Assembly (NCBI GenBank): GCA_016744115.1
Contig: JADGEZ010000001.1
Location: 80,877-144,876 of the forward strand
Direction: 5' to 3'
Source: Sulfurimonas sp.
GTDB taxonomy: Bacteria > Campylobacterota > Campylobacteria > Campylobacterales > Sulfurimonadaceae
DNA: 64,000 nt
The notes below the pieces were generated by a model. The model was given only the letters and a program-made list of their open reading frames with translations. It was not told where the DNA came from and searched no databases. The number at the start of each line of letters is the position of its first letter. Within the stretch, counting starts at the first letter, position 1. Both the position numbers and the translations under genes were made by a program. This document shows positions 8,283 through 17,134 of the stretch, in pieces.

Positions 8283-8369
8283 TTTTGCTTTCAGCTAAAT
8301 AAAAGCAAATAAGATGGATAATGTAGTAGCAAATGATTGCTACACACCATATGTTTGGTGCAATTTTTT
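8283..8369 (+). other. Three stem-loops between fliW and the adhesin gene (terminator and/or attenuating leader)
   Basis: In order: TTTGCTTT (8284-8291) pairs with AAAGCAAA (8302-8309); GTAGCAA (8326-8332) pairs with TTGCTAC (8337-8343) around a 4-base loop; CACCA (8345-8349) pairs with TGGTG (8356-8360), followed after CAA by six T (8364-8369). The last has the form of a rho-independent terminator and ends only about 23 bases before the adhesin ATG. It may be fliW termination in tandem or a 5' leader that attenuates the adhesin operon. Confidence 0.5.
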
Positions 8370-8392
8370 ACTTCATATTCAAGGAGTTTGTT

Positions 8393-11300
8393 ATGCAAAT
8401 TTTACTTACATTTTTTAAAATTATTTTCTTTTATCTTATTTTATTTAGTTTTTTTACATCTTTAAATGCAAAAACTGAGGAGTTTAGGTGTGCAAAGCCA
8501 AGAGAGTTTTCAATGGTCAAAACATTTAACATCAAAGGGCGAATTGATATTATAGGAAATACTGTCTTATGTAAACCAGTTGGAGGGATATGTGGTGACC
8601 CAAATAGCGATCAGTATATAAATAATAACGATATTGACATGATGTATATTAATGTTGATGGTGATAATGCAACTATAAACCATTCATCAGCCTACCTCGA
8701 TATCCCAACTGGTGCGGAGTTAGTATGGGCTGGATTGTATTGGCAAGGGATATTTGAAGATCCGAGTGAGTCTCAACAAGATTTGAGTAGAAAAGTTAAG
8801 TTTAAAGTAAAAGACGGCACTTATGTGGATGTTGAATCTAACTCAACTAAGCATAATTGGATTTACCTTGATACAGGTAGAGATAGATGGTATTATCAAG
8901 GGGCTAAAGATATTACAGATTTGATAATCGATAAAAAAAATCCTCATTGGTATAGTGTTGCAAATATTCAAACAACAGAGGGAACACCTGGCGGTGGTAG
9001 TTATGGTGCTTGGTCTATTGTGGCTATTTATAAAGATGATAATGAGCCACTTCAAAATCTAGTCGTTTATGATGGTTATCAAGGAGTATTTAATGGTAAC
9101 GATTCAACTACTTGTGCTGGTCAAGAAAACAATCCAAAAGATGCTTGTAATTATGCATCAAGGAATACTTGTCCCTCCTCACTAGCATCCACAGGTGCTG
9201 CAAATCCTATAAAGGTTACTCTTGATGGATTTTTAACACCCGTAACTGGTGAAATATTCTCATCCTTTGCTTTATTCTCAGGTGAAGGGGACATAGCGAT
9301 GGATGGAGACACATTAACTTTAACAAGTTTTGAAAGTAACACTCATACACCTATGCCTGTTGGTGGTTCATCTGGATCAATAAATCCTGCAGATAATTTA
9401 CAAAATTCTAGCATCACTAAAAATGGTCTTGCAGTAAAAGACTTAGAACCTCAAAAGACTATGTCGTTTAATAGTTCTGGGCTTAATGAAGCATGGCCTA
9501 ACTCACTTGGTATAGATATTGATTTTTTTAATACAAGCGATATAATAAAAAATAAACAAAAATCTACGGAAGTTACTTTAGCAACAACAAATGACGGATA
9601 CCTTCCTGGAGTTTTTGCCTTTTCTACTAACCTTTATGAACCACGAGTTTGTTATAAACAAGAGTTATTTGATGAAAATGACAATGAACTAAAGGCTTCA
9701 AATCCAGCAAGTGTTGGAGATACCATTACAATAAAAACTTGGATTTCAAATATGAACAAAGATGGAGATTACGGTGATTTAGAGGATGCTTTTAAGGTAG
9801 AAGTTAGCATGGAACTAGATACGGTTAATCTTCAATATGAAGAAGATAGCTTTGAGATGAAAAAATTTGGTAAACCTACAGAGGATTATGAAGATTATAC
9901 TGATGATAAAGACAGTGATAAAATAGATTGGGATAATAGTACTAAGACAGCAAAATGGAGAGTAGGTCAAGGTGCTAATCGCAATAATGGGGGAAGATTA
10001 GCCGCAAATTTTACAAACGCTAGTGGTAAAAAAATTAGTCAAGATTTAATCCAATTTATACAGTTTGAAGCCGAAGTAATAGAAGCAGGTAATATTGTAG
10101 TAGATAATGTTTATAAAGTTTCCTATAGAGATGACCTCCTAGATACTAATTTTAAAGGCTTACCTATGGAGATTTGTGCTGATATTGATGCTGCTTTTGT
10201 TTCAAATAATCCAGCAAAATTTAATGTCGTCAATGCTACAGGTGGAAATGGTGACTATACTGATCCAAAAAGCGTGCAAACTTACTTGCCAACACAAGTT
10301 GCAAAGAGAATCTTTAATGTTAAAATCATATCACTCAACGATGCTAAAACAGCTAAAAAAAGCTACAACGGTGCCGTTAGTCTTTCTTTGGTAGATGGCA
10401 CTAATCTTTCATCTGCTGTAAGTGATGCAAATAAAAAAGTAGCCTGTGATGGTGCAGATTCTCTCATAGATTATGGTGCAGCAATAAGCTTTAAGGATAC
10501 AGAGTCGGAAAGTAAACAAGTCGTCTTTGATGAAGCCATAGAGAATGCTTACTTCAAAGTTACTTATCCTGGTGGTTCTTCATGTTCACTTGATAACTTT
10601 GCTGTTCGCCCTAAAGAGTTTGATGTTTTAATAGATGAAGTCGATCCAACTACACCAGCAATAAAAGCAGAAAATGTAACAATCACATACAATGCAAATG
10701 ATGACCTTGGTGATGCTACAAGCAAGTATGACTTTGCTTTAGCGGACTTAGAAATCACTAAAGACATAGTCCCTGCCTCAAAAACTTGTAATGGAGAACT
10801 GAGCTTAGAAACAACAGCTTCTTTTAGAGATGGTACAGTCGATCAAGCTCAACTCTTAAATGAAGTCGGCGTATTTAACATTAAGATAGAAGAAAAAGAT
10901 TCTGATCTATTTGCTAAAGTAGATTTGCTTGACCCTGTTACATCAAAGATAAAAATAGAGAAGTATGATGAGGAAATAACTATCTACCCAGATCATTTCG
11001 CCATTGGTGAGATTGGTAATATTAATCAAAACGATGCCACTTTTACCTATCTAGCTGAGGGTGAGGAGTTAGACAATATGGCTCTAAACTTTGACTTTAG
11101 CGTAAGGGCTCAAAATGAGGATGATGAGACTACTAAAAACTACTCTGATACCTGTTACTCTAATGATACAAATATAGTTATGAATTATACTAATGTCTCC
11201 CCAGGTGCTAATTTTCCCACAGACATCCTATATAAAGAGGCAGATACAGTTTTAGCAGCTGGTACACATTTTGAAGAAAATACCGCAGATGATAATAACC

Positions 11301-12019
11301 TCACCACTAGCACTATAAAAAGTAAATTTATAGATGGTCTAGCAGACTATCAAATTCGTGTAAACTTTACAAGAGTGATAAATATCGCTACAAACCCTTT
11401 TAAAGTTAATTTTAATAGTTTAAATGTTTCAGATAAGGATCACCCAGATGCTGATACACAAATAACTTTTACCGATACAACTGGTGGCAGTACCATAGAC
11501 AGAGATGCTACCATGTACTACGGACGGACAAATTCTCCAAGATCAAGGTTTGCAGGGGACACAGCTCAAAGAGCCTTTATATACTATGAAGTGTTTTGTG
11601 GTGCTGGATGTAATAGGGCACTTCTTCCTGCTAATCCAAGATATACAAATGACCCTAGATGGTTTGTGAACCCAGAACATAATAATACAACTTTTGGTAG
11701 TCCTGGTGTAGTAAGTCAAAAAACTCCTCCTCCAGCAGGTGAATTAGTAACTCTAAATACAGGCGACCCAAGCCTTCTTGGAGATTTTTTTAGCCTAGAC
11801 TATAATGCTACAACTAGAGGTTACCCATATAAAACAACTATGGAGAACAATGCTTCTAGTTGGTTACTACACAATCAATTTATTAGTAATGATACAAATA
11901 ATGAATTTGAAGTGGAGTTTGAAGGAAATGCTACTGCTTGGGCAGGTGAAAAGGAAACATCTACCACAACAAATACAGATAACACAGCAAATAGAGTAAA
12001 CAGGAGAAGCATGTGGTAA
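8393..12019 (+). CDS. Large exported MshQ-like (DUF6701-type) surface adhesin
   Basis: A protein of 1208 residues with signal peptide MQILLTFFKIIFFYLILFSF ending near LNA. The start at 8393 is chosen because AAGGAG precedes it by 7 bases, whereas the 8333 start adds 20 poorly supported residues. The N-terminal third has a beta-rich domain (YLDIPTGAELVWAGLYWQG ... NLVVYDGYQGVF). The centre and C-terminal half resemble MshQ/DUF6701 (CSLDNFAVRPKEFD, YPDHFAIGEIG), with many Asp, Asn and Thr and paired Cys suggesting beta-sandwich repeats. It heads an operon with three pseudopilin genes, overlapping the first by 7 bases. I infer a pilus-associated, cell-surface protein. The ligand is unknown, and no membrane anchor or sorting signal is evident. 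Confidence 0.7.
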   Translation: MQILLTFFKIIFFYLILFSFFTSLNAKTEEFRCAKPREFSMVKTFNIKGRIDIIGNTVLCKPVGGICGDPNSDQYINNNDIDMMYINVDGDNATINHSSAYLDIPTGAELVWAGLYWQGIFEDPSESQQDLSRKVKFKVKDGTYVDVESNSTKHNWIYLDTGRDRWYYQGAKDITDLIIDKKNPHWYSVANIQTTEGTPGGGSYGAWSIVAIYKDDNEPLQNLVVYDGYQGVFNGNDSTTCAGQENNPKDACNYASRNTCPSSLASTGAANPIKVTLDGFLTPVTGEIFSSFALFSGEGDIAMDGDTLTLTSFESNTHTPMPVGGSSGSINPADNLQNSSITKNGLAVKDLEPQKTMSFNSSGLNEAWPNSLGIDIDFFNTSDIIKNKQKSTEVTLATTNDGYLPGVFAFSTNLYEPRVCYKQELFDENDNELKASNPASVGDTITIKTWISNMNKDGDYGDLEDAFKVEVSMELDTVNLQYEEDSFEMKKFGKPTEDYEDYTDDKDSDKIDWDNSTKTAKWRVGQGANRNNGGRLAANFTNASGKKISQDLIQFIQFEAEVIEAGNIVVDNVYKVSYRDDLLDTNFKGLPMEICADIDAAFVSNNPAKFNVVNATGGNGDYTDPKSVQTYLPTQVAKRIFNVKIISLNDAKTAKKSYNGAVSLSLVDGTNLSSAVSDANKKVACDGADSLIDYGAAISFKDTESESKQVVFDEAIENAYFKVTYPGGSSCSLDNFAVRPKEFDVLIDEVDPTTPAIKAENVTITYNANDDLGDATSKYDFALADLEITKDIVPASKTCNGELSLETTASFRDGTVDQAQLLNEVGVFNIKIEEKDSDLFAKVDLLDPVTSKIKIEKYDEEITIYPDHFAIGEIGNINQNDATFTYLAEGEELDNMALNFDFSVRAQNEDDETTKNYSDTCYSNDTNIVMNYTNVSPGANFPTDILYKEADTVLAAGTHFEENTADDNNLTTSTIKSKFIDGLADYQIRVNFTRVINIATNPFKVNFNSLNVSDKDHPDADTQITFTDTTGGSTIDRDATMYYGRTNSPRSRFAGDTAQRAFIYYEVFCGAGCNRALLPANPRYTNDPRWFVNPEHNNTTFGSPGVVSQKTPPPAGELVTLNTGDPSLLGDFFSLDYNATTRGYPYKTTMENNASSWLLHNQFISNDTNNEFEVEFEGNATAWAGEKETSTTTNTDNTANRVNRRSMW

Positions 12020-12636
12020 AACATCTTGCCTTTACTATGATAGAGCTTATTTTTGCTATCGTAATTATCGCCTTTGCTGTTTTGTCTTTACCTATAATAA
12101 ATAATGTACTCTCAAAAAATATAGAGGGAAGTATGACACAAGAAGCTATCTTTGCAGCGTCCGCGGAGTTAAACCAAGTTCTTACTTTGTATTGGGATTC
12201 GAACTCCATGGAGGATAATGCTACTCTCTCTCGTGTAGTTTGGGAAAATAACGCAGACTGTAGTACAACAACTCAAAGAAGACCAGGGCATATAGATCAA
12301 CCCTTACATAGAAGATGTAGAGATAATAATGTTAGCAGACCTAGTATTCCCCTTGAAGCTAGTATTGGCAATGTAAATCCAAGAAATCTTAATGATGTAA
12401 ATTTAACGGCTCATAATATTTTTATAGACACTTCAAAGTCAGCAAGTGGATATAAAAAAATATATAACTCAGATATTGATATAATATTTGCAAGTATTGA
12501 TAAAGATTATACTACTGGAAATAATATGAAAAAAATAACAGTAACTATAACTGATGAAAATGGTGATGTAGTAACACTCCTTCGTACTTTTAGTGCAAAT
12601 ATCGGCGAGATTGACTACCATAAAAGGAGTTATTGA
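12013..12636 (+). CDS. Type IV pilin-like minor pseudopilin (first of three)
   Basis: The N-terminus MVKHLAFTMIELIFAIVIIA is a class III prepilin leader: short positive leader, then Phe-Thr-x-Ile-Glu with the conserved Glu5 and a hydrophobic helix. It should be cut and N-methylated by a prepilin peptidase. The globular part (about 170 residues) has a Cys pair (NADCSTTTQRR, HRRCRDN) and no recognised subfamily, though MshD or PilV-like minor pilins are the nearest idea. The start is GTG at 12013 with AGGAGA upstream, overlapping the adhesin stop. It ends in TGATG shared with the next gene, so the genes are translationally coupled. Confidence 0.75.
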   Translation: MVKHLAFTMIELIFAIVIIAFAVLSLPIINNVLSKNIEGSMTQEAIFAASAELNQVLTLYWDSNSMEDNATLSRVVWENNADCSTTTQRRPGHIDQPLHRRCRDNNVSRPSIPLEASIGNVNPRNLNDVNLTAHNIFIDTSKSASGYKKIYNSDIDIIFASIDKDYTTGNNMKKITVTITDENGDVVTLLRTFSANIGEIDYHKRSY

Positions 12637-13571
12637 TGAAACTTCGTCCTGCTTTTACTATGATAGAACTTGTTTTTGTAATCGTTATTATGGGGATTAT
12701 TGGAAAGTTTGGGATTGAGTTTATCTCTAATGCTTATAGAAGCTTTATCTACACAAAAATAAATAACAATCTCCAATCAAACAGTGCAATGGCAGTAGAA
12801 GTGATAGCCTCAAGGTTGCAGTACCGTATCAAAGATTCTATTATCGCTAGGGAAACTTCAACAAGTGGATTTACAGCGCTTAGAAATGCAAGTGGAGATA
12901 ACTTTACTGTACTTGAATGGATAGGAAGCGACATAGATGGCTTTCGTGGACCAAACGCTAACCCTAGTTGGAGTGGGATTAATGATATCAGTGTTGGTAA
13001 TGCTACGAATATACACTCACCTAAGTCAAAGAGTGTTGTAGCTAATGGAATTATTAAAAATTTATCAAATAATAATTCAAGATTTCGTGACGCCGCCTTA
13101 TATTTTGTAGGTTCAGACAATGACATTTTAACTGATTTTGGGTGGGATGCTAATTCCGCTAATGAAACTTATATTGACAATCAACTTGGGGCAATGCACC
13201 CTATAAAACGAATTACAAGGAATAATAAAAAATTTGCACCTTTGCTGTCATCATCCTCATTTTCAGAAGTATTTGAATACTATAAATTATCATGGACAGC
13301 GTATGCTGTAGCATTGGAAAATGTTAGTACTACAACTAATATGGGAGATTTATTTCTTTATTATGATTATCAACCTTGGCATGGTGACAAATATACTGAC
13401 TCAGGTAGAAAAAAAGCTTTACTTATGGAAAATGTCGATACCTTTCAGTTTATAGCGATGGGTTCCGTCGTTAAAATCCAAGTATGTGTAAAAAGTCCTA
13501 TTATTGATGGAAGTTCAAATCAAGCTGCTGGTGGAGGGTATTCGATATGCAAAGAAAAAACTATTTACTAA
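12636..13571 (+). CDS. Type IV pilin-like minor pseudopilin, MshO-like position
   Basis: The prepilin-type N-terminus MKLRPAFTMIELVFVIVIMG has Glu5 after the Ala/Phe cleavage site, followed by a hydrophobic helix and a globular domain of about 270 residues. The larger size and place in the set suggest an MshO, PilW or GspJ-like minor pilin. The track begins at a TTG (12633). The ATG at 12636 is better because AAAGGAG lies at 12623-12629 and the ATG overlaps the upstream TGA by one base. It overlaps the next gene by 25 bases. The C-terminal Cys pair (IQVCVKS, YSICKEK) could form a disulphide. Confidence 0.75.
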   Translation: MKLRPAFTMIELVFVIVIMGIIGKFGIEFISNAYRSFIYTKINNNLQSNSAMAVEVIASRLQYRIKDSIIARETSTSGFTALRNASGDNFTVLEWIGSDIDGFRGPNANPSWSGINDISVGNATNIHSPKSKSVVANGIIKNLSNNNSRFRDAALYFVGSDNDILTDFGWDANSANETYIDNQLGAMHPIKRITRNNKKFAPLLSSSSFSEVFEYYKLSWTAYAVALENVSTTTNMGDLFLYYDYQPWHGDKYTDSGRKKALLMENVDTFQFIAMGSVVKIQVCVKSPIIDGSSNQAAGGGYSICKEKTIY

Positions 13572-14056
13572 AAAGAAACTCGCATAGAACTCATAGAAGT
13601 GCTATGGCTATGATTATGGCTATTGGTGTTATCGTTATCATAGCTAGTATATTAACATTTGCCTTATCACTTGCTACACAAACAAGTAAAAAAACTATAG
13701 ACTTATATGCTTATGAACAGGCTATTTTACTCTCAAAAAGTGCCGCTGAGTATGCCTTACTTAGAATCTCTTTAGATAATACTGCCGCAAATCCATGCAA
13801 TGTAACCGCTCTAAATTTTAGACCTGATATGGATAGTGATGGTAGTATTGATGATGATTATTATGACATAGAAATAAATATAAAATACTCATATGTAAAC
13901 CCACCAAGTAGCTGTGATGGTAAAATATATGCAACTGTTCTAACCGCTGCACAAAGTGGAAGTGTCCTCATGGATATAACAGTAAGTGTCCCTATCAGTA
14001 AAAATGTTACCCTCGAACCTATTCGATACTTTAGAAGAAGTATTCAAAAACTTTAA
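13547..14056 (+). CDS. MshP/PilX-like minor pilus component
   Basis: A positively charged N-terminus is followed by one hydrophobic helix, SAMAMIMAIGVIVIIASILT, without the canonical Phe-Thr-x-Ile-Glu. Then comes YEQAILLSKSAAEYALLRIS, a pattern typical of MshP, PilX and GspK-type proteins, which often lack Glu5 and sit at the pilus tip. The start at 13547 has GGAGGG at 13533-13538. It is the last gene of the adhesin-pseudopilin operon. No pilus ATPase, platform protein, secretin or prepilin peptidase is in the window, so assembly must rely on genes elsewhere. Confidence 0.65.
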   Translation: MQRKNYLLKRNSHRTHRSAMAMIMAIGVIVIIASILTFALSLATQTSKKTIDLYAYEQAILLSKSAAEYALLRISLDNTAANPCNVTALNFRPDMDSDGSIDDDYYDIEINIKYSYVNPPSSCDGKIYATVLTAAQSGSVLMDITVSVPISKNVTLEPIRYFRRSIQKL

Positions 14057-14115: not shown

Positions 14116-14649
14116 ATGAATATTTCTCTAACAGGAAGACATTTAGAATTAACCGATGCTATTAAAGCTCATATGAACACTTCCATCGAAACGCTTAACA
14201 AGTTTAACATGGATATTATCTCTATAAATGTTGTAGCTCAGGCACAAACTAAAAAAGGCAAAGAGCATTGTGTTGTTGAGTTTGTTATCAACCTTGCACA
14301 TAAAAACTCTATCATCATCAAACAAAATGATGACGATTTATATGTGGCCATAGACATAGCAACCGCAAGAGCTCAAAAAGCAATGAGAAGAATCCACGAC
14401 AAGGCTTCAGGTCACTACAAAGTAGGACTCAACGAAGTCAAATTTGCCGACGCAGATGTAAAATCAGCGACCCTAGAGATGGAAGATGAAATCGTTCCAG
14501 TAGAACTAGCCCTCTATAAACCAAGAGAAGTTGAAGATGTCTTAAACAACTTAAAAGAGTCTGATAAATTATTTGAAATTTTCATAGACTATGAAGATAA
14601 AACTCGTGTTCTATATAAAAGAGATGATGGTAAGTTTGCTTTGTATTAA
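14116..14649 (+). CDS. hpf: Long-form ribosome hibernation promoting factor
   Basis: 177 residues with the two parts of long HPF. The N-terminal S30AE domain (MNISLTGRHLELTDAIKAHM ... AIDIATARAQKAMRRIHDK) binds the 30S decoding centre. A short linker leads to a C-terminal dimerisation domain (PVELALYKPREVEDVLNNL ... VLYKRDDGKFALY) that lets long HPF form inactive 100S ribosomes. It sits alone behind its own consensus promoter, convergent with the recD2-like helicase across an unusually structured intergenic region. Confidence 0.92.
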   Translation: MNISLTGRHLELTDAIKAHMNTSIETLNKFNMDIISINVVAQAQTKKGKEHCVVEFVINLAHKNSIIIKQNDDDLYVAIDIATARAQKAMRRIHDKASGHYKVGLNEVKFADADVKSATLEMEDEIVPVELALYKPREVEDVLNNLKESDKLFEIFIDYEDKTRVLYKRDDGKFALY

Positions 14650-14663
14650 AATAAATACTTTTA

Positions 14664-14893
14664 TGCTATACTTTGCATAAGAGAGAGGAAAATTTCCCTC
14701 TCCGTGTTTTAATTATTTCTGAGATACAAAAATATCTCATAAACAACTTTAAGAATTAATTCGATAATTCTTAACATGTAAATCACTATCCTTTACGGTT
14801 TAGGATTTACTAAAACTATATGCGCAGTTGTAGCTGTTGCATATAGCTACAGTAGAACCGCACTTGTATTATATCAAGCGATACTTAAATCGC
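14664..14893 (+). ncRNA. Candidate structured RNA or terminator cluster downstream of hpf
   Basis: A gene-free stretch with six local inverted repeats: GAGAGG/CCTCTC (14683-14702); TGAGATA/TATCTCA (14720-14739); TTAAGAATTA/TAATTCTTAA (14749-14774); GTAAATC/GATTTAC (14778-14810); CTATATGC/GCATATAG (14816-14846); GCGAT/ATCGC (14878-14893). A possible extended -10, TGCTATACT at 14664-14672, precedes them. The first may end hpf and the last the helicase transcript. The four between them exceed what termination needs. It does not match tmRNA, RNase P, SRP or any riboswitch I know. Existence and strand of a transcript are inference. Confidence 0.35.
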
Positions 14894-14896
14894 AAT

Positions 14897-17134
14897 TTAT
14901 AATTCTAGCAAAACAGTATCACGCCGTGTTACCTCAAACTTTTTACATCCACTCTCAAAAGCAGCACCCTCGCCTACTAGGATACATTTATGTTTAGCCC
15001 TTGTAATCGCTGTATAAATAAGCTTAGTATTGTGCATAATAAAGTGAGAAAAAGTGATAGGGATAACTACTATGTCATACTCCATACCTTGCACCTTATG
15101 TATCGTTAAAGCATAAGAGAGCATCAAGTATTGTTTTAACTCTGCGTACTCATACACAACGACTACATCTTCATTTGGATAAAAAACATAGACAAGTTCT
15201 TCTTCCTCTTCTATCTTAAAAAGAAGTCCACTCATACCGTTAAAAATCCGCCTTTGATTTGAGTTTTCACCCAACTTAAAAGCATCCCCACTCCATGAAG
15301 TCATGTTCTCATTTTTGATATGCACTACCTTATCCATAAGTCTAAACTCAACTCCAGCTTTTTTAACACACTTTTTTGGATTAGGGTTAAAGTACTCTTG
15401 TAAAACCTTGTTAAGATTTGTAGCACCTAAAGTCCCCCCTTTCATAGGTGTTATCACTTGAAAATAGTTAAGATACTCTTTGATTTGTTTATTGTTGAGT
15501 CTGTACCTTGCTTTTTCTAAAGACTCTAAAACTCTATGTAATATCTCTGAGATAATATTTTGAGAATTTTCTTCTCGTTTTTCTTGAAGCTCACTTGCAC
15601 TAAGCATGTTTTTCATAGCATAAGAGTTTTGCATACTTATCTCAACAAACTCAAAATCCTCATACTTCTCTGTATATTGAGGTACTTCGCCCTTGCGTAT
15701 ATCATTTGCTATAAGAGTAATGGCTTGATCTTCACTTTGACGATAAATCTTTGTAAGTTTAACTATGGGAGCTAAGTCAAGTGTTAAAACATCGCTCAAA
15801 ACATTTCCAGCGCCAATAGGAGGTAACTGTGCATCATCTCCTACGATAATTAGTATCGCATTTTTTTTAACTTTTCTCAAAAACCTAGCAAACAAAGAGG
15901 AGTTAATCATAGAAGCCTCATCTATTAAAACAACTAGATAAGGAAAGCTATCACTCTTATCATACTTGAGTATCAAAGATTGGATTGTTGCACTCTCATA
16001 ACCTGTTGTATCGGCTATCCTTTGTGAGGCTATACCGCTTAAGGCACAAGTCATTATCTCTTTTGTATCAAAACGAGTGTTGAGCAAGTTGAGGATAGTA
16101 CGACTTGTTGTACTTTTTCCTGTTCCTGCATAACCCACAAGAAACAAGATTGAAACTCCCTTGTTGATTTTTACAACAGCTTCTTTTTGTTGCTCTCCTA
16201 ACTCTAAGTCTGCCTCTTTTAAAAACTTGTCGATATCTTTTACAAATCCACCACTATCTCTTTTAGCACGAGCCTTAAAAGTATCATATAAAAACTTCTC
16301 TGCCTCATAAAGTCTTGCAGGGGAGAGTCTGTCATTTTTCATTATCACTATATTTTTTTCGGCTATTCGCTCAACTAAAATAGACTCATAAATATTTTCT
16401 TTATCCTTAAACATAAGAAGCTCATCAAGTTCATGAAAAAGTATCTCTTTAGCTACACAAGAGTTTCCTTGTTGCTCACAATAATTTAGAAGTACATAAT
16501 CCATAGCCGAAGCTATACGATTTTCATCTGTTTTTTGTACCCCCATCTTAAGAGCGAGTTCATCAGCTCGTCTAAAACCAATAGAATTAATAGAGGTCAA
16601 TACATAAGGGTTATTTTTGATTTTAGTACAGGGTTCTTCTACATTTTTCATAGCTGTTGCTATGGTAGTTAAAAGAGTAGCAGATACATCAAAAGGGCTT
16701 AAAAATTCGCCAAGCTTACGCATAGATCGAAACTTTTTCCAAGAATCTTGAATCTTTTGGAGGCGTTTTTCTTTGATACCCTTAAACTCTAAAAGACGCT
16801 CAATGTCATTGTCTAAAATATCTACTAACTCATCTGAACCAAACTTTTCTATAAGCTGCGATGAGAGTTTTTTTGTAAAACCTTTGACTATTTTGTTTAA
16901 AAAGAAGAACAGTTGATTTTGATTTACCTTGATAGAGGTAAATTTAAAAGTTTTACCATACTTCTTATGCTCTTGCCAAATTCCATCAAGGGTAATAGCT
17001 GAACCTTTGATATGTTCAATATCACTCTCAAAATAGCTCCCAGATATTTTTTCTCCAGTTTTTAAAACTGCGATAAAAAAGCTCTCTTCTTCAAAAAGAA
17101 TTTTTTCTATTTCACCTATGAGAGTTGTACTCAA
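14897..17134 (-). CDS. RecD2/TraA-type ATP-dependent DNA helicase
   Basis: 745 residues of the RecD-like superfamily 1B family (5'-3' helicase acting without RecBC). The N-terminal OB-like and helix-hairpin-helix region includes LLEFKGIKEKRLQKIQ and LTSINSIGFRRADELALKMG, typical of RecD2. The motor has Walker A GYAGTGKST, DEASMINSS (motif II), GDDAQLPPIGAG (motif III) and the UvrD_C2 box LSYALTIHKVQGMEYD. The role is presumably DNA repair or replication restart. It lies 11 bases upstream of nothing else in this direction and follows glyQ closely (11-base gap), so read-through from glyQ is likely. Confidence 0.85.
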   Translation of the reverse strand: MSTTLIGEIEKILFEEESFFIAVLKTGEKISGSYFESDIEHIKGSAITLDGIWQEHKKYGKTFKFTSIKVNQNQLFFFLNKIVKGFTKKLSSQLIEKFGSDELVDILDNDIERLLEFKGIKEKRLQKIQDSWKKFRSMRKLGEFLSPFDVSATLLTTIATAMKNVEEPCTKIKNNPYVLTSINSIGFRRADELALKMGVQKTDENRIASAMDYVLLNYCEQQGNSCVAKEILFHELDELLMFKDKENIYESILVERIAEKNIVIMKNDRLSPARLYEAEKFLYDTFKARAKRDSGGFVKDIDKFLKEADLELGEQQKEAVVKINKGVSILFLVGYAGTGKSTTSRTILNLLNTRFDTKEIMTCALSGIASQRIADTTGYESATIQSLILKYDKSDSFPYLVVLIDEASMINSSLFARFLRKVKKNAILIIVGDDAQLPPIGAGNVLSDVLTLDLAPIVKLTKIYRQSEDQAITLIANDIRKGEVPQYTEKYEDFEFVEISMQNSYAMKNMLSASELQEKREENSQNIISEILHRVLESLEKARYRLNNKQIKEYLNYFQVITPMKGGTLGATNLNKVLQEYFNPNPKKCVKKAGVEFRLMDKVVHIKNENMTSWSGDAFKLGENSNQRRIFNGMSGLLFKIEEEEELVYVFYPNEDVVVVYEYAELKQYLMLSYALTIHKVQGMEYDIVVIPITFSHFIMHNTKLIYTAITRAKHKCILVGEGAAFESGCKKFEVTRRDTVLLEL

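Follow-up and report, generated by a model that had tools for sequence, protein, structure and literature searches.

What do six inverted repeats stand for when they follow one another between two convergent genes? In the window analysed here (the whole stretch of 64,000 nucleotides of Sulfurimonas DNA) they lie between hpf and recD2, in a region which an earlier reading of the letters had described as gene-free and as carrying a structured RNA of unknown class. According to the comparative evidence collected below, the locus is probably a type I toxin-antitoxin system, in which a TisB-like peptide would be encoded on an AapA/IsoA-like mRNA; the probability assigned to this interpretation is about 0.83.

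Location and folding of the hairpin region

All six stems claimed for the intergenic region were found in place, and the inverted repeats listed in Table 1 were confirmed in the sequence. The flanking genes are convergent, as had been proposed: hpf, on the plus strand, was recognized by its S30AE domains and recD2, on the minus strand, by HHH_RecD2. When the region was compared with its dinucleotide shuffles, folding z-scores of -6.84 (plus strand) and -7.93 (minus strand) were obtained, and on each strand none of 200 shuffles folded as well; the 201-nt minus-strand RNA alone gave a z-score of -6.9. No Rfam family matched the hairpin region at the gathering score, and relaxed thresholds produced chance matches only, far below gathering. 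Elsewhere in the window, positions 8333-14056 encode a 1228-aa protein with no Pfam match, followed by pilin-like proteins, probably a pilus-related operon; among the latter, 12013-12636 has a weak N-methylation motif.

Table 1. Features of the hairpin region in window coordinates; names referring to toxin and antitoxin denote candidate functions.
Feature	Position	Strand	Remarks
Conserved RNA unit (candidate toxin mRNA)	14662..14862	-	putative ends; 212 bits with model R1, 66.3 bits with model R2
Extended -10 of candidate antitoxin RNA, TGCTATACT	14664..14672	+	immediately past the 3' hairpin
Candidate antisense RNA (antitoxin) spanning the toxin ORF	14679..14777	+	putative start, placed from the -10; no clear terminator
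3' hairpin, inverted repeat GAGAGG/CCTCTC	14683..14702	both	helix 6; kept in both genera
Candidate toxin ORF, MLRIIELILKVVYEIFLYLRNN, 22 aa	14709..14777, stop included	-	missed in annotation
Long hairpin over second half of ORF	14711..14748	-	helix 5; 6 of 15 pairs changed on both sides
Inverted repeat TGAGATA/TATCTCA	about 14720-14740
10-bp hairpin inside ORF, inverted repeat TTAAGAATTA/TAATTCTTAA	14749..14774	-	helix 4; 6 of 10 pairs changed on both sides
Hairpin, inverted repeat GTAAATC/GATTTAC	14778..14810	-	Shine-Dalgarno in loop; ends beside start codon
Shine-Dalgarno AAAGGA	14789..14794	-	11 nt before ATG
5' leader hairpin GCTATATGC...GCATATAG, inverted repeat CTATATGC/GCATATAG	14816..14847	-	helix 1; 100% of cells paired
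Candidate toxin-mRNA promoter, TTGATATAAT	14868..14895	-	TTGCGA - 16 bp - TATAAT, TG before -10
Inverted repeat GCGAT/ATCGC	14878-14893		overlaps the minus-strand promoter

A dispersed unit within Sulfurimonas

A blastn search of the genome of origin with positions 14640-14910 identified two further copies, both on contig C51 (87% and 78% over about 204 bp). The element is a dispersed unit of about 205 bp, present three times in this genome. A covariance model, R1, was built from nine copies of the unit and run across 135 Sulfurimonas genomes. Matches were found in 11 of them, nine being clear (60 bits or more); apart from the genome of origin, clear copies are present in 8 of the other 134, and the two genomes with the weakest matches hold an element of another kind. 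The unit has no match in plasmid, phage and viral collections. A pattern match in Neobacillus (L070) was discarded as a chance match inside other sequence, and the weak blastn matches L049-L051 contain no recognisable copy.

Another explanation for such a region would be that it merely provides bidirectional terminators for hpf and recD2, which converge, or that it is a REP/MITE-like repeat, as its intergenic position, its dispersion and the score of one hairpin as a plus-strand terminator might indicate. However, the genes adjoining the copies differ, the other copies being found at unrelated loci, each with its own promoter, and the site downstream of hpf is devoid of the unit in the relatives examined; the unit is therefore an independent element, and not a pair of hpf/recD2 terminators. 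The conservation of an ORF and of promoters, described below, and the lack of terminal inverted repeats on inspection of the alignment also argue against this explanation, which is hardly credible.

Some copies occur in arrays. On contig C51 (L039:1-1480), the two units alternate with ORFs of 107 and 112 aa, which have both ends in common (MSRQYTDSSDELCPLGGK... and ...GSDVWYK), differ in their middles and have no Pfam match; the genome holds no further match to this ORF beyond the two. The tandem array, with a period of about 665 bp, runs off the contig start and looks like a cassette array with the candidate toxin units between cassettes. At G123:C179:19720-20225 (L052, L045), a tandem pair of diverged units, 303 bp apart, encodes different peptides.

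The minus strand as the folded strand

In the consensus structure, pairing cells contain G-U in 50 cases versus A-C in 9. The minus strand is therefore the one selected to fold, and a structured RNA on the plus strand, the choice of the sequence-only reading, was ruled out by this bias. Covariation among relatives, by which that reading had proposed to judge the stems, is evident in the Sulfurimonas alignment (A1): 15 pairs have changed on both sides, in a total of 31 such cells, a result reached by none of 500 shuffles, and slid controls scored far lower.

Along the minus strand the aligned copies show the same order: TATAAT promoter, leader, Shine-Dalgarno AAAGGA, ORF and 3' hairpin. The promoter in the window matches the consensus at 10 of 12 positions and has the TG, and every Sulfurimonas copy has a TATAAT-like -10 in the corresponding position. 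The sixth stem, GCGAT/ATCGC, is no part of the RNA: it falls inside this promoter and outside the conserved unit.

The predicted hairpin with the Shine-Dalgarno in its loop is paired in 97% of cells and includes one compensatory pair; its arms read GCAAATC/GATTTGC in G133. The AACCG of its loop also has complementarity to UGCGGUU (14862-14856), the 5' end of the RNA. The pairing between the 5' end and the sequence just before the Shine-Dalgarno reads UGCGGUU/AACCGUA in the window and CGCGGTT/AACCGCG in G140. In the predicted fold of the candidate toxin mRNA the ribosome-binding site would be hidden. In published type I systems the Shine-Dalgarno is concealed either in hairpins or because the two ends of the mRNA pair with each other, and the antisense RNA then brings about cleavage by RNase III (PMC6733600, PMC8322730).

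The leader hairpin has a 3' arm that is also complementary to the UAUGC of the RNA's 3' end, which suggests an alternative long-distance pairing. Sulfurimonas copies have 4-6 bp of this complementarity, which is not significant (permutation p 0.086); in a second genus, introduced below, a 7-bp pairing of leader and 3' end is present in nearly all of 17 copies, and is almost invariant, so that it is uninformative for covariation. The proposal that the RNA has alternative pairings was upheld. The 3' hairpin is a candidate 3' end for the toxin mRNA and, on the other strand, a candidate 5' end for an antisense RNA; no clear intrinsic terminator was found for either RNA.

The encoded peptide

The region is not gene-free: the minus strand contains a 22-codon ORF, shorter than the usual annotation limits. 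An ORF is present at the same place in 7 of 12 Sulfurimonas copies, and homologous amphipathic peptides of 20-24 aa (MLRIIQLILKVVYEILRYLRDN, MSKIVLAILEVIREILRYLNND, MFKIILAILKVVYEILKYLNEDN and similar) are encoded there in other copies. Length differences among intact ORFs amount to whole codons, and an SD-like sequence, with variants, accompanies the intact copies of both genera. The pN/pS ratio in Sulfurimonas is 0.51, a value as low being given by 8 of 200 shuffles (a weak test on 7 sequences). The peptides are hydrophobic, and most of them, including most from Sulfurimonas, have a strong helical moment; for the window peptide it is 0.53, equalled or exceeded by 27 of 2000 shuffles. A short, hydrophobic and probably membrane-bound peptide would be produced from a small mRNA, as expected of a type I toxin. 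In several Sulfurimonas copies the ORF is broken (by a frameshift in L046 and a change of ATG to ATT in L043, while L048 has no ORF), as is expected of toxin loci in decay.

The window peptide matches no Pfam family, and none of the scanned Sulfurimonas peptides matches the TisB_toxin profile. In relatives, similarity to the TisB family (PF13939 / TIGR04459) stays below the curated cut-off, the best score being 22.5 bits versus 25.

A second genus and wider relatives

A remote match of R1 was found in G440, a genome from another family of the same order. By blastn from this copy, the unit was located in 17 of 78 genomes of its genus, a few of them by weak short matches only, and often several times per genome. 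All 25 aligned copies, complete or nearly so, have an ORF of 20-21 aa in the corresponding position, such as MDLLILILTIIVAILRYFNN. Here pN/pS is 0.35, below all 200 column shuffles, and the covariation in the alignment (A3) was equalled in 0-1 of 500 shuffles. The two sets of copies find each other: R2, a covariance model built from second-genus copies only, matches the window copy (66.3 bits, E 4.4e-16), and R1 in turn finds second-genus copies. Pfam TisB_toxin matches, below the cut-off, were obtained for 8 of 18 aligned peptides (best E 2.7e-4), and for two peptides of a third family reached through R2, MEIIILVIKLLVALVELLRAFLELVI (E 1.4e-4) and MDLFIHIIKLLVALAELLRAFLELI (E 1.8e-3). Five other R2 matches (L125, L126, L128, L130, L131) were set aside, as they resemble coding sequence or the hairpins of unrelated terminators.

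These data bear on the original idea of a non-coding structured regulatory RNA, whose short ORF would be a by-product of the hairpins. The strong fold and the covariation agree with it, as does the absence of an intact ORF from some Sulfurimonas copies. It does not account for the presence of an SD-like sequence before 25 of 25 intact second-genus ORFs, for the constraint specific to codon position, or for an amphipathic peptide similar to the TisB family, and is considered very unlikely. What stands of the sequence-only reading is a conserved, covarying, structured RNA; rather than being non-coding, it appears to be the mRNA for a short hydrophobic peptide.

Other observations were made in these genomes. 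In most second-genus copies (L086-L109) the candidate toxin -10 is preceded, at a distance of about 30-40 bp, by a conserved box, TGTCAATTTGACA or TGACAATTTGACAT, and a similar box is found in some of the AapA-like loci described below (L063, L075, L077, L117); it is possibly a shared operator, and was not seen at the window copy. Four copies (L092, L097, L105, L110) carry a short palindromic insert (TACCCCAAGGGCATTTCC...GGGCA) in the 5' leader, with the ORF unbroken, as if a small repeat element inserted there. Short hydrophobic peptides with a strong SD and nearby hairpins (MDLFIHIIKLLVALAELLRAFLELI, MSKTMLIVALILVILVTKLY, MRFILIIVILLLLIIVTKAY) were also noticed in other genomes of the order (L123, L124, L127, L129).

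The antisense promoter

The extended -10 assigned to the structured RNA in the sequence-only reading does exist on the plus strand; it belongs, instead, to a candidate antisense transcript running the opposite way. It is located 36 bp beyond the stop codon of the candidate toxin ORF. In plus-strand sense, TGNTANNAT occurs at the same place in 26 of 26 second-genus copies, where each of the four bases occurs at N, and in Sulfurimonas TANNNT is present in 9 of 9 copies and TG in 7 of 9, counts that are not independent, the copies being related. That TG and TA..AT are invariant while a base among them is free is characteristic of an extended -10 rather than of RNA pairing. At the window copy the sequence is TATACT, which matches less well than the TATAAT found in most copies. 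The promoter faces the putative toxin ORF, and this is, as far as can be judged from sequence, the layout of a cis-antisense antitoxin.

Conservation of a peptide does not prove toxicity, and the antisense RNA is a candidate. A small gene for a non-toxic membrane peptide, such as one that regulates a membrane complex, controlled by its own leader and having no antitoxin, is thus another explanation. It is improbable, given that the antisense extended -10 is kept in both genera, that the distribution of the unit is multicopy, patchy and decaying, as is typical of toxin-antitoxin loci, and that the peptide resembles TisB.

Proposed mechanism

A promoter, a leader structure, a Shine-Dalgarno, an ORF, a 3' hairpin and an antisense -10 are conserved by sequence. 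In the type I toxin-antitoxin interpretation, the minus-strand promoter would direct the synthesis of an mRNA of about 200 nt, encoding the 22-aa amphipathic, TisB-like membrane peptide. Folding of the 5' leader would place the Shine-Dalgarno in a hairpin, and alternative pairings that involve the leader and both ends of the RNA may keep the full-length mRNA untranslated; the exact switch in the mRNA is inferred. From the plus-strand extended -10 promoter, an antisense RNA would be transcribed and pair with the toxin mRNA, presumably blocking it or exposing it to RNase III. Should the antisense RNA fall, the peptide could be made and inserted into the inner membrane, with collapse of the proton-motive force and growth arrest, by analogy with TisB, a pore-forming peptide that dissipates the proton-motive force (PMC8309996).

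Another Sulfurimonas family that shares the 3' module

A second family, B, was observed in about 20 Sulfurimonas genomes (L063:1480-1700, L075-L085, L111-L115), and is called AapA-like on the basis of general resemblance and layout. It is found in the same genus, has a similar size, and shares with the window unit the 3' hairpin and an antisense TGNTATAAT-like module. Unlike the window unit, it encodes a peptide of the MKKFHLKLTFIVWRLKVNFELKRV type and its 5' and 3' parts are clearly complementary, as in CCAACAT/ATGTTGG. That two families have this 3' module in common suggests a shared chassis. Tentatively, and at somewhat less than even odds, these loci would make up a previously undescribed multicopy type I family of free-living Campylobacterota, with toxins of the TisB-like and the AapA-like kind carried on one RNA chassis that has a 3' antisense promoter module, the toxins being exchanged within it.

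No Rfam family, curated Pfam match or paper describing the unit was found. Searches of the available literature combining type I toxin-antitoxin with Sulfurimonas, Sulfurovum or Campylobacterota, or TisB with Epsilonproteobacteria, returned nothing, which is no proof of novelty; in the papers found, the type I toxins reported for the phylum come from Helicobacter. Should they be confirmed, the loci would extend TisB-like toxins outside enterobacteria, to Sulfurimonas and its relatives, and offer a natural comparison of different toxins silenced by the same RNA architecture, and the covariance models could serve to annotate such loci.

Comparison with known systems

With tisB/istR-1 of E. coli (PF13939), the unit shares a structured 5' leader and a short peptide, both amphipathic and hydrophobic, in which the N-terminal residue is polar or charged and basic residues lie close to the C-terminus; relatives also give sub-threshold profile matches. 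It differs in the length of the peptides (20-24 aa, against 29 aa for TisB), in the lack of a profile match among the scanned Sulfurimonas peptides, and in the antitoxin: IstR-1 acts in trans on the standby site, and tisB is LexA-controlled (PMC8309996), whereas here the candidate antitoxin promoter is cis-antisense, at the 3' end. Since the curated cut-off is not reached and the antitoxin layout is different, the unit was not filed as TisB.

A further known system is aapA/IsoA of Helicobacter pylori, a member of the Campylobacterota. Common features are a cis-antisense antitoxin (a candidate here), a short membrane peptide, several copies per genome, and an mRNA with metastable pairings that hide the SD and, possibly, 5'-3' pairings (PMC6733600, PMC8322730). 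However, the -10 of IsoA3 lies inside the aapA3 ORF (PMC6733600), while the antisense -10 of the unit lies past both the stop codon and the 3' hairpin, and its peptide appears TisB-like rather than AapA-like, as judged by inspection and by the Pfam matches of relatives. Because the antisense promoter is outside the ORF and the peptide appears to be different, the unit was not filed as aapA/IsoA either.
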